Assembly (NCBI RefSeq): GCF_019890615.1
Contig: NZ_JAINVZ010000029.1
Location: 1 to 64,000 of the forward strand
DNA from: Streptantibioticus parmotrematis
GTDB lineage: Bacteria; Actinomycetota; Actinomycetes; Streptomycetales; Streptomycetaceae
Length of the DNA: 64,000 nt
Reading direction: 5' to 3'
Shown: positions 21,878-26,094 of the stretch, one piece after another
How positions within the stretch are numbered: position 1 is the stretch's first letter
How the letters are laid out: each line of letters opens with the position of its first letter
Made by a program: the position numbers and the translations under genes
Notes under the pieces: generated by a model
Seen by the model: only the letters and a program-made list of their open reading frames with translations
What the model was told of the DNA's origin: nothing
Database searches by the model: none

Positions 21878-21880
21878 TCA
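21830..21880. repeat. 17-base tandem repeat at the nsdA 3' end
   Basis: GGGCGGACAAG(C/T)GGTGC occurs at 21830-21846 and 21847-21863. A degenerate third unit at 21864-21880 contains the nsdA stop codon. Confidence 0.65.
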
Positions 21881-23395
21881 GACGGCCGTACGGGCCGCCG
21901 CCTGGGCGTCGTCGGGCAGTTCGGTGCGGAGCCGGTCGCGCAGCGAGACGACCTCGGCGACCGTGCCGTAGTCGCGCAGCGCCGCGTCGGCGGTCTTGCG
22001 GATGCGGGTGTTGACCCGCTCGGAGCGGACCTTCTTGGCGACGTCGATGGCCCGTCCGGCCAGGTCGGACGCCTGCTCGGGCTCGGCCTTGAGCAGGTGG
22101 ACGCTGGCCATGCCGACCAGGTTGAGGGCGTAGGAGCGCTGGTGCTCGGAGTCGGCGGCGAACAGTTCCACGGCCCGGTTCATCACCGGGGCGGCGAGCG
22201 AGGCGTACGTGGGGCTGCGCCCGGCGACGTAGGCGAGGTCGCGGTAGGAGTGGGCGTTCTCCGCGTTCAGCTCGGCCTCGGAGAAGAAGCGGATCCAGTC
22301 CGGGTCCTCGGTGGGCAGCGAGTCGCTGAAGGCGTCCTCGGCCATCCGCACCGCGCGGTGGCACTTGTTGACCTGCCCGAGACTGGCGTAGGCACGCGCC
22401 TCCATCGCGTGCAGCATCGCCTGGGTGGTGGCGGTGGCCGAGTCACGACTGCCGTACTGCGCGAGGTGGATGAGCTCCAGCGCGTCGTCGGGGCGGCCGA
22501 CGTGGATCATCTGGCGGCTCATGTTGGACAGCACGTAGGCGCCGAGCGGACGGTCGCCGGCTTCCTTGGCGGCGTGCAGCGCGAGCACGAAGTACTTCTG
22601 CGCGGTGGGCTGGAGGCCCACGTCGTAGCTCATCCACCCGGCGAGTTCGGCGAGTTCGGCGGTGACGCGGAACAGGCGCTTGGCGACCGGCGCCGGGTGC
22701 GGCTCCTGCAACAGGTCGGTGACCTCGTGGAGTTGGCCGACGACCGCCTTGCGCCGCAGCCCGCCGCCGCACTGCGCGTCCCACTGGCGGAACATCACCG
22801 TGGTGCTCTCCAGCAGGTCCAGCTCCGGTCCGGACAGCCGGGTGGGCCGGGAACCCCGGGCGGCCGGGACCGCGGCGAGGGGACCCTGCGGCGCGCCGCC
22901 GGGGGCGGGCACCAGCCAGCGCTGCATCGGTTCCACGAGGGCGGGTCCGGCCGACAGCGCGAGGGAGGCGCCGAGGAAGCCGCGGCGGCCCAGCATCAGG
23001 TCGCTGCGGGAGAACTCGCTGATCATCTCGACGGTCTGCGGCGCCGCCCACGGCAGGTCGACGCCGGAGGTGGCGGGCGGCTGGTGGGCGGTGCGCAGGC
23101 CCAGTTCCTCGATGGCGACCACCGCGCCGAAGCGCTCGGAGAACAGCTCGGACAGGATGCGCGGGATGGGCTCGCGGGGCTGTTCGCCGTCCAGCCAGCG
23201 GCGCACCCGGGAGGTGTCGGTGCACACGTGGGTGGCGCCGATCTGCCGGGCCCTGCGGTTGACCTGCCGGGCCAGCTCGCCCTTCGACCAGCCGCTGCGC
23301 ACGAACCACGAGCCGAGCTTGGCGTTGGCCTGCTTCTCGCTGCCTCCGCCCGCGCCGCCGTTCGTGCCGCCGCTGGTGTCGTCGGTGCCGCCCAC
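21878..23395 (-). CDS. nsdA: NsdA-type negative regulator of Streptomyces differentiation
   Basis: 505 residues. The region KLGSWFVRSGWSKGELARQV and THVCTDTSRVRRWLDGEQPR resembles a helix-turn-helix. After LMLGRRGFLGASLALSAGP comes a helical TPR-like region (residues about 150-500). This matches NsdA, known in S. coelicolor to repress sporulation and antibiotic production and to lie next to amtB-glnB-glnD; that synteny holds here. The GTG at 23395 is chosen because AGGGAGG lies eight bases upstream; an ATG at 23470 lacks one. Mechanism is not established. Confidence 0.88.
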   Translation of the reverse strand: MGGTDDTSGGTNGGAGGGSEKQANAKLGSWFVRSGWSKGELARQVNRRARQIGATHVCTDTSRVRRWLDGEQPREPIPRILSELFSERFGAVVAIEELGLRTAHQPPATSGVDLPWAAPQTVEMISEFSRSDLMLGRRGFLGASLALSAGPALVEPMQRWLVPAPGGAPQGPLAAVPAARGSRPTRLSGPELDLLESTTVMFRQWDAQCGGGLRRKAVVGQLHEVTDLLQEPHPAPVAKRLFRVTAELAELAGWMSYDVGLQPTAQKYFVLALHAAKEAGDRPLGAYVLSNMSRQMIHVGRPDDALELIHLAQYGSRDSATATTQAMLHAMEARAYASLGQVNKCHRAVRMAEDAFSDSLPTEDPDWIRFFSEAELNAENAHSYRDLAYVAGRSPTYASLAAPVMNRAVELFAADSEHQRSYALNLVGMASVHLLKAEPEQASDLAGRAIDVAKKVRSERVNTRIRKTADAALRDYGTVAEVVSLRDRLRTELPDDAQAAARTAV

Positions 23396-23869
23396 CCGGA
23401 ACGCCTCCCTGTTCTGGTCCCCGTGCCGTTGGTCCCCGTGCTGTGCCGCCCCGTCAACCGCCCTCAGCATGCCGCCGGTTGGCGCTCCTGTCGCACCGTC
23501 CGTCAACCCTGGTTGCCGAATACGTGTGCGGGGAGTGCCGTTGGCATACCCGGCGGGCGTACCGGCCCCGAGGGCCGGTGAACCGAAAGTAACCCCTCGA
23601 TCACCCGTCCGGCGAGGGCGGATGCGGAAACGCCACCATTCGCCACCCCTGCGAATGAACTCTTCCGCGGTCGCGCGCGATTCACTTGACACGTGGTGAC
23701 CGGGCCGGGGCGGATGGGGTCGTCGGGCGGCGCGCGGCGAGGAACGCGCGACCCGGGGTGCGACGGTGCGCCACCCCGTCGTCGGTCCCGGCCCCCGACG
23801 ACCCGTCAGCTCTCAGGAGTTACCGGCCGATTACGTAACCAACGGCCCCTTAGGAGTGTTGGAGGTGAC
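23396..23869. other. Divergent promoter region between nsdA and a primase-polymerase-like gene
   Basis: 474 bases with no supported gene. A TTGACA is seen on the plus strand near 23683, and the palindrome TTACGTAA near 23830. The long divergent gap suggests regulated promoters for nsdA and the neighbouring gene. Confidence 0.45.
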
Positions 23870-24538
23870 ATGGGCTTCACGATCGGCAGTTTCCGGGAGA
23901 TCCGGGACATCGCGCCCGGCACCCGCCGCCGTACCCGTACCTCGGTGCGCGCCACGGTCGCGGAGTACACCGGGCGGTACGGCTGGATGGTGGCCCCCGG
24001 CGCCCGCGCGGTGCGCGGCGAGTGCAGCTGTGGCGACCCCCGCTGCACCGCGCCGGGCGCGCACCCGCTGCGCTTCGCCTCCGAGATCTCGGCGGGCCTG
24101 TCGCCGGCCCGGGTCGCCGAGGCGTGGGACGAGACGCCGGGCGCCGCGGTGCTGCTGCCCGCCGGGCGCTCCTTCGACGCGCTGGACGTGGCCGAGGAGG
24201 CGGGCTGCCAGGCCATGGTCCGGCTGGAGCGGATGGGCCTGCGGCTCGGTCCCGTGCTGGCCACCCCGACCGGCCGGGCGCAGTTCTTCGTGGCGCCGGG
24301 CGCCGCGGCCGCGCTGCCCAGCCTGCTGTACCGGATGGGCTGGGACGACACCGGTCTCGACCTGCGCTGCCTGGGGCGGGGCGACTACGTGACCGCGCCG
24401 CCCTCCGACCTCGGCGGGCTCGGCCCGGTGCGCTGGCTGCGTCCGCCCTCCCCGGACCGGCAGCCCCCGGAGGCCCGCTTGCTGCTCGGGACACTGGCGT
24501 ACGTGTGCCACCGCCACGGACTGCTCGTGCGCTCCTGA
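23870..24538 (+). CDS. Stand-alone primase-polymerase (AEP) N-domain protein, likely inactive
   Basis: 222 residues starting MGFTIGSFREIRDI, with GGAGGTGAC before the ATG. The segment GECSCGDPRCTAPGAHPLRF (residues 50-69; Cys52, 54, 59) matches the front of the bifunctional primase/polymerase domain of phage and plasmid replication proteins. Where active members have a D-x-D acid pair after the strand, this protein has FDALDVAEEAG: Asp106 is kept but the second Asp is Ala108. It also lacks the helicase domain of replicative forms. I infer a non-catalytic, possibly regulatory role. It is divergent from nsdA, a known Streptomyces arrangement. The 3' end is duplicated. Confidence 0.72.
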   Translation: MGFTIGSFREIRDIAPGTRRRTRTSVRATVAEYTGRYGWMVAPGARAVRGECSCGDPRCTAPGAHPLRFASEISAGLSPARVAEAWDETPGAAVLLPAGRSFDALDVAEEAGCQAMVRLERMGLRLGPVLATPTGRAQFFVAPGAAAALPSLLYRMGWDDTGLDLRCLGRGDYVTAPPSDLGGLGPVRWLRPPSPDRQPPEARLLLGTLAYVCHRHGLLVRS

Positions 24539-24629: not shown

Positions 24630-25850
24630 TCAGTCGCCGATCAGTGCGTCGACGAACGCCTCCGGCTCGAACGGCGCCAGGTCGTCCGGGCCCTCGCCCA
24701 GGCCGACCAGCTTGACCGGGACGCCCAGTTCGCGCTGGACCGCCACGACGATGCCGCCCTTGGCGGTGCCGTCCAGCTTGGTCAGGGCGATGCCGGTGAT
24801 GTCGACCACCTCGGCGAAGACGCGGGCCTGGACCAGGCCGTTCTGCCCGGTGGTGGCGTCCAGGACGAGGATCACCTCGTCGACCGGGCCGTGCTTCTCC
24901 ACGACCCGCTTGACCTTGCCCAGCTCGTCCATCAGGCCGGTCTTGGTGTGCAGGCGGCCCGCGGTGTCGATGAGCACGACGTCCGCGCCCTCGGCGATGC
25001 CTTCCTTCACCGCGTCGAACGCCACCGACGCCGGGTCGCCGGCCTCGGGACCGCGCACGGTGCGGGCGCCGACGCGCTCGCCCCAGGTCTGCAACTGGTC
25101 GGCGGCGGCGGCCCGGAAGGTGTCCGCCGCGCCCAGCACCACGCTGCGCCCGTCCGCGACCAGGACGCGGGCGAGCTTGCCGGTGGTGGTGGTCTTGCCG
25201 GTGCCGTTGACGCCGACGACCATCAGCACGGCCGGGTTGTCGGTCACGCTCTCGGTGTGCAGAACGCGGTCGAGGTCGGTGCCGACCAGCGTCAGCAGCT
25301 CCTCGCGCAGCAGGGTGCGCAGTTCGGCCGGGGTGCGGGTGCCCAGGACGCGCACGCGGGTGCGCAGCCGCTCGACGAGCTCCTGGGTGGGGGCGACGCC
25401 GACGTCGGCGGTCAGGAGGGTGTCCTCGATCTCCTCCCAGGTGTCCTCGTCGAGGTGCTCCCGCGACAGCAGGGCCAGCAGGCCCTTGCCGAGGGTGTTC
25501 TGCGACCGCGACAGCCGGGAGCGCAGCCGCACCAGGCGGCCCGCGGCGGGCTCGGGGACCTCGACGGCCGGCGGCGCGGCGGCGGCCTCGGGTTCCTCTG
25601 CCTCCGGCGGCAGGGTGACCACCGGGGCCTCGGGCAGGCCCACCTCCTCGATGGTCCTGCGAGGTTCGTCACGTGGGGTCTCCGCGTCCTCGCCGACGTG
25701 GGGCTCGGCCGGAGGGGCGGTGATCCTCGGTTCTGCCGACGGCGGCGGCGCGGGCGGCAGCTGCTTCTTACGGCGGCTGCCGATCACGAGGCCGCTGAGC
25801 GCGCCGACCGCGACCAGGGCGATGACTACAGCAAGGATGACGGTTTCCAT
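24630..25850 (-). CDS. ftsY: Signal recognition particle receptor FtsY
   Basis: 406 residues. An N-terminal membrane segment ([20 protein letters not shown]) anchors it, unlike the E. coli form. A short acidic Pro-rich region follows, then the NG GTPase: [60 protein letters not shown] and [15 protein letters not shown]. It receives Ffh-bound ribosomes at the membrane. GGAGGG lies before the ATG. Partner ffh lies about 9 kb away. Confidence 0.97.
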
Positions 25851-26094
25851 AACGCCCTCCAGTATCGGCCACGGCCCGGCCGCGTCACGCGAAGGCGGCG
25901 CGGCGGGCGGCCGGGTCGCCGGGCCGGGCCTCGTGGTGACGGCGGGAGATCCGGCATAATGGGACAAAGATCACGGTTGACGTTTTGTTCAGGCGCATAT
26001 GATCCTGGGGCCGTGACGCGCGTAGATCACGTGCGGCAGCCTTGTTCCGCTCCGCGGTTCCACCGCCTTCCCCTTCCTCCGGAGTACCTCCGCC

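Follow-up and report, generated by a model that had tools for sequence, protein, structure and literature searches.

A degenerate primase-polymerase protein encoded divergently from nsdA, a possible regulatory partner of NsdA

The protein encoded upstream of and divergently from nsdA in Streptantibioticus parmotrematis (hereafter P) is tentatively explained as a catalytically dead primase-polymerase (Prim-Pol) that would be produced as aerial growth begins and act together with NsdA. This explanation builds on four features derived from comparative sequence analysis: the degeneration of the Prim-Pol motifs, the predicted fold, the divergent pairing with an NsdA-type gene at two paralogous loci and a conserved promoter. 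NsdA has been described as a negative regulator (repressor) that controls antibiotic production; the evidence links P to this repressor and, through the sequence of its promoter, to the sigma factor responsible for starting aerial growth, and bears on what modulates NsdA. If the explanation is true, a replication fold has been reused as a regulatory partner. The window, i.e. the whole stretch of DNA that was analysed, comprises positions 1 to 64,000 (64,000 nucleotides) of contig NZ_JAINVZ010000029.1; the features discussed are compiled in Table 1.

Table 1. Features of the nsdA-P-ftsY region (positions in the window; the nsdA start codon was chosen at 23470, the start of the ftsY-like gene is as given by the ORF tool)
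Feature	Position	Strand	Basis
nsdA, divergent neighbour; N-terminal helical (HTH-like) domain and TPR repeats	21878..23470	-	NF050130, model, fold search
Direct repeat CGCCACC-N3-CGCCACC, nsdA/P intergenic region	23631..23647	.	candidate operator
-35 element CGTAAC, sigma-BldN-type promoter	23834..23839	+	orthologue pattern, published motif
-10 element TGTTGG, 17 nt past the -35 element	23857..23862	+	orthologue pattern
P, degenerate stand-alone Prim-Pol (AEP-fold) protein, 222 aa	23870..24538	+	ORF, Pfam, model, profile alignment
CxC-x4-C-x5-H, putative zinc site (C52, C54, C59, H65)	24023..24064	+	orthologue counts
Motif I region D103-A-L-D106-V-A108	24176..24193	+	profile alignment, orthologue counts
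Motif II region G135-R-A137-Q138, catalytic His absent	24272..24283	+	profile alignment, orthologue counts
Motif III Asp D164	24359..24361	+	profile alignment, orthologue counts
Gene reading as ftsY, convergent neighbour of P, synteny marker	24630..25967	-	named from own sequence

The upstream neighbour of P was identified as nsdA by the NCBIfam model NF050130 (927.9 bits versus a cut-off of 830). Loci with both nsdA and ftsY were regarded as orthologous to that of the window; 109 of them (107 distinct) were collected from the top of the match list, and the set is therefore biased to higher-scoring genomes. In the second genome of the same genus group, the P orthologue is 97% identical. The intergenic direct repeat, a single occurrence within the window, was present (with a spacing of 2-4) in 106 of the 107 loci and is a candidate operator or nsdA promoter element. 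A palindrome across the -35 element of P (TTACGTAA) likewise appeared operator-like and was rejected, as it occurred in 2/107 orthologous loci. In genome G110 (L050/L255), a frameshift at about residue 171 seemingly divides the P orthologue in two, nsdA and ftsY matching along their length.

Residues 32-201 of P were matched by the Prim-Pol family PF09250 (E 4.8e-20; 73 bits versus a cut-off of 22.8), and the Pfam search up to E 10 returned nothing else, i.e. no helicase domain. The first-pass annotation of this DNA, which had described a stand-alone primase-polymerase domain with a cysteine motif and without a helicase domain, divergent from nsdA, is borne out in these respects. Searches of solved structures with the single P sequence or with a profile gave no AEP match; the fold comparison was therefore used. 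In this comparison with AEP structures, which the annotation had proposed, the model of P (calculated from 90 related sequences; mean pLDDT 91.4) had pRN1-type Prim-Pol chains as its best matches (Z 9.0-9.3, rmsd 4.0-4.3, 167-171 residues aligned), and other AEPs came next with Z values of at most 6.6; the best Foldseek match reached E 1.3e-3. A profile-profile comparison of the P family with 22 canonical actinobacterial Prim-Pols (two of them from the own genome; of the 26 loci, L218, L219 and L228, read in a wrong frame, and L234, present as a fragment, were left out) yielded a probability of 99.0 and, for one target, E 2.7e-18. According to the predicted structure, P is a protein of AEP/Prim-Pol fold. 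Neither P nor NsdA nor the SCO3374-family paralogue discussed below was matched by models of defence systems.

The canonical Prim-Pols exhibited a hydrophobic-D-x-D motif I in 22/22 and a G-G/N-x-H motif II in 21/22 sequences. In the register of the profile alignment with these proteins, D106 of P corresponds to the first and A108 to the second aspartate of motif I, as expressed in the D-x-A reading of the first-pass annotation; its conclusion that the catalytic acid pair had seemingly been lost applies to the second position, whereas the first has been retained. Position 106 was acidic in all 107 orthologues (Glu in 66, Asp in 41) and position 108 in none of them (Ala 84, Pro 10, Ser 9, Thr 2, Gly 2): the substitution is thus conserved as a non-acidic residue, although not as alanine throughout. 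An acid at position 108 was also missing from all 90 rows of the wider alignment of related chromosomal proteins, an extent of the loss that the annotation had not seen. As position 108 was never acidic among the orthologues, the loss of the second acid is old and conserved. The degeneration furthermore extends, beyond what the annotation had described, to the motif II histidine, placed by the profile at A137 (at Q138 if shifted by one): histidine was found at position 137 in 0/90 rows of the wider alignment and at position 138 in 24/107 orthologues. Other elements have been retained: D103 is invariant (107/107), D164 of motif III is kept in 104/107 and each position of the Cys/His motif in 106/107 orthologues, the Cys motif being lost at one locus of an own-family genome (L058/L256). 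In class C (13 rows of the 90-protein alignment), the acids of both motif I and motif III are gone.

Of the residues used in Prim-Pol catalysis, two (the second carboxylate of motif I and the histidine of motif II) are gone throughout the orthologues; P, a homologue of plasmid and phage Prim-Pols, has therefore presumably ceased to synthesise nucleic acid. Published mutants argue, by analogy, that a site of the P type cannot polymerise: According to PMC5862659, PolpTN2 with both motif I aspartates replaced is inactive, and in PMC10778844, Glu116 of human PrimPol (taken as the equivalent of position 108) is assigned to the binding of metal B and His169 is reported to be essential for polymerase activity. 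It is accordingly improbable that P is still an AEP enzyme with a rearranged site, in which D103, D106 and D164 replace the usual triad, as might be proposed from the conservation of these three positions, from the variation of the motif II histidine among AEP families (PMC5862659) and from four reduced orthologues of a sister family (L245, L249, L250, L252) that read FD-V/L-VEAD and thus possess an acid at position 108. However, the latter four proteins lack the Cys motif and, by eye, a D-x-R motif III; position 106 is occupied by Cys or Ser in 2 of the 15 rows from the second locus (see below); and D103 precedes the first aspartate of motif I by three residues and, by the profile register and the model, would point to the other face of the strand. 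The retained D103, D106 and D164 may nevertheless form a metal site.

The P query matched some family member in all 197 genomes of the order searched, and in 35/197 genomes of a wider class sample (16 of the 35 from the own family). Two further Prim-Pol copies with intact motifs are present elsewhere in the own genome, and the Prim-Pol family is also found in mobile elements; that P was left behind recently by an integrated phage or plasmid is nonetheless hardly credible, as the synteny contradicts it (107 distinct loci have P in one and the same position, flanked by nsdA and ftsY), a family member was matched in every searched genome of the order, and the dN/dS ratios of 0.07-0.23 (six pairs) indicate purifying selection. 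In a tree of 73 proteins (a short search, with long branches flagged), the degenerate families grouped apart from six canonical Prim-Pols with an SH-aLRT support of 100. The genomes of the order carry several Prim-Pol-domain proteins, and by this evidence those of one chromosomal group cannot act as ordinary primases. For P itself, the earlier view of a domesticated, non-catalytic protein is well supported at the sequence level by the fixed place, the losses in motifs I and II and the purifying selection.

Two gene arrangements of related proteins were observed in addition. In another actinobacterial family (L082, L084, L086, L087, L091, L095), the P-like gene follows a hemB-like gene and is itself followed by a hemL-like gene in several of these loci. 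Members of a paralogue class without any of the motif acids were located, in eight genomes (L176, L177, L180, L181, L182, L184, L188, L189), at a distance of approximately 6-27 kb from a Prim-Pol match of higher score, perhaps beside an integrated element.

The pairing of P with NsdA was analysed in 211 loci with a P match. An NsdA match was present in the flank of 145, and in all 145 the NsdA gene was located upstream of P on the opposite strand. These loci comprise the 109 (107 distinct) with ftsY, i.e. the first locus, and 36 (35 distinct places) of a second locus, which encodes a P paralogue of 38-50% identity and an NsdA-type gene of 28-38% identity. The other 66 loci, mostly of other paralogue classes (a few of them one place counted twice), had no NsdA match in the fetched flanks; genome G003 is represented among these 66 with each of its four P-like loci. 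In the sister family, for which the first locus was obtained from 11 of the 14 listed genomes, the divergent P-nsdA pair is kept in 11/11 genomes and the Cys motif of P is absent: seven proteins have lost the whole N-terminal part including the motif, four have lost the Cys residues. The former seven (L243, L244, L246, L247, L248, L251, L253) consist of the core and the C-terminal helix, and the strand of ftsY relative to P is opposite to the arrangement of the window; these reduced proteins were assigned by place and a partial sequence match of 32-41% identity, and the one tested (L243) had no Pfam match. The second locus was also found in 10 of the 11 sister-family genomes. Distance matrices of the 107 loci gave a partial correlation of 0.66 for P and NsdA given FtsY, and of 0.20 for P and FtsY given NsdA; 0/500 permutations reached the observed value, all three proteins sharing one common species tree and the NsdA and FtsY sequences being partial.

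The main indication that P acts through NsdA is that the zinc site, like the catalytic residues, can be lost from P without any change of the neighbour. The main rival interpretation, a doubtful yet serious possibility, keeps all of this explanation except the contact with NsdA: P would be a dead Prim-Pol that is induced in development and works alone, either sensing nucleotides or binding single-stranded DNA or RNA, and the adjacency of nsdA would reflect a shared regulatory region. Such a function is consistent with the near-complete conservation of the Cys/His motif and D164 in the orthologues, with the maintenance of the intergenic direct repeat and with the SCO3374-family paralogue, which has the same promoter beside clpC-like and lsr2-like genes and no nsdA. 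However, the sister family and L256 have lost the Cys motif but preserved the pair with nsdA, which is hard to square with a conserved nucleic-acid binding by this motif, and the pair with nsdA has been kept at two paralogous loci.

The developmental timing of P is suggested by its promoter. The start codon of P follows the -10 element after 7 nt, and a transcript would in consequence be leaderless or nearly so. The sequence CGTAAC-N17-TGTTGG has one match in the window (0.04 expected), and the pattern CGTAAC-N15-18-NGTT[AGT] preceded P in 103/107 first-locus orthologues versus 1/428 control windows; in 94 of these 103, the gap between the -10 element and the start is exactly 7 nt, and the near-invariant form of the promoter reads CGTAAC-N16/17-NGTTG. 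Among the four orthologues without the pattern, L081 reads CGTGAC and L130 CACAAC (two mismatches), and L104 and L106 had nothing promoter-like before the script-assigned start, which may be wrong. The pattern was likewise found at 23/25 second-locus loci and at 8/10 second-locus loci of the sister family, but at none of 59 loci from four other groups of family members (0/22, 0/16, 0/7 and 0/14; the four loci of G003 are excluded from the count, and the seven-locus group E includes the SCO3374-family locus L203, the same place as L288, which is the sole SCO3374 locus of 20 without the site). The seven sister-family proteins reduced to core and C-terminal helix have, by eye, CGTGAC-N17-CGTTGG at the same place; of the four reduced orthologues that keep the N-terminal helix, the three examined had, by eye, no clear site.

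In the own genome, the pattern occurred 21 times versus 4 times for the reversed pattern. Three of the matches precede P, its second-locus paralogue and the SCO3374-family paralogue; another, exactly CGTAAC-N16-CGTTGA, precedes a bldM-like response regulator gene, whose product we take to be BldM. Two further matches (L260, L264) precede genes for small proteins, one of them putatively secreted and the other a putative membrane protein. The sigma factor BldN has been reported to recognise CGTAACN16CGTTGA (PMC2375139), a site from which that of P deviates slightly in spacer and -10 element (N17, TGTTGG). Chaplin genes, known sigma-BldN targets (PMC4125116), gave a mixed picture as a control; the exact CGTAAC site was found before none of the own-genome chaplin domains (0/9 and 0/7) and none of 30 chaplin loci of five Streptomyces, some of which derive from one gene. 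With one mismatch permitted, however, the site occurred upstream in 17/30 versus downstream in 1/30 of the latter loci, and with two mismatches in 24 versus 10. The tentative assignment of the P promoter, which matches the published motif, to sigma-BldN is therefore based on the bldM and the one-mismatch chaplin matches, and the activity of the promoter would depend on this sigma factor; a different ECF sigma factor that recognises a similar site may be responsible instead. Sigma-BldN promotes development and starts aerial growth, and P should in this case appear when aerial growth begins. The proposal of the first-pass annotation that P has a regulatory role in development thus gains indirect support from the promoter type and the conserved divergent pairing with nsdA.

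The SCO3374-family paralogue of the own genome (L269:1536-2270 on contig C21; NCBIfam 166.5 bits) is flanked by a clpC-like and an lsr2-like gene (names by reading) and was not seen beside an NsdA gene. Orthologues of SCO3374 were obtained from 20 of 27 genomes searched, the other 7 having no match, and the promoter pattern was present upstream in 19/20 of their loci versus 0/20 downstream; the two SCO3374 proteins that were scanned had no Pfam match. The three dead primases of streptomycetes, encoded beside nsdA, the NsdA-type gene and lsr2, might form one set of leaderless sigma-BldN targets, whose members act as developmental protein partners that redirect NsdA, its paralogue and perhaps Lsr2, a generalisation that we consider unlikely as it stands. 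If it is true, the set would represent a new use of the primase fold, i.e. as a transcription co-regulator.

According to the preferred explanation, P, transcribed from the near-leaderless sigma-BldN-type promoter, would act together with NsdA, the HTH-TPR repressor of the divergent gene, and would most likely bind this protein. The NsdA model (mean pLDDT 77.7) comprises four HTH-looking helices at residues 50-114 and a TPR-like superhelix, of which the latter weakly matched many TPR proteins (E 0.003-0.02), including NprR and chains of the RapF-ComA complex; the TPR surface is the plausible place of the contact with P. For S. rimosus, an NsdA orthologue has been reported to bind DNA both in vivo and in vitro (PMC12243394), and binding of P would change the DNA binding or the targets of NsdA. 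P might be an antagonist or a co-repressor; as NsdA is a negative regulator and sigma-BldN promotes development, relief of repression is the simpler guess. No Prim-Pol-like partner of NsdA was named in the literature covered, including the available part of PMC12243394, and no paper was found there on SCO5581 (presumably the S. coelicolor name of the P gene), on SCO3374 or on BldN together with a primase; most of the subscription literature lies outside this coverage, so that the absence says little.

In comparison with known systems, the closest resemblance is to the Prim-Pol PF09250 of the pRN1 ORF904 type (PDB 1rni, 1ro0, 3m1m), which shares with P the fold, the order of the motifs and the motif III aspartate. 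In contrast to these proteins, P has neither the second acid of motif I nor the histidine of motif II, and it is a stand-alone, chromosomally encoded protein with a fixed place beside nsdA. The SCO3374 family (NF040464) resembles P as a degenerate paralogous domain behind a near-leaderless promoter and carries an FDVLDVP-type motif; P itself is placed outside this family (58.3 bits versus a cut-off of 110). On the side of the proposed partner, the neighbour in the window is a clear NsdA (NF050130; NsdA family NF053720), and the second module has an NsdA-type gene. HTH-TPR regulators such as NprR form a further class for comparison with NsdA; in its TPR part, the NsdA model resembles NprR and the TPR anti-activator RapF, weakly and among many other TPR proteins.
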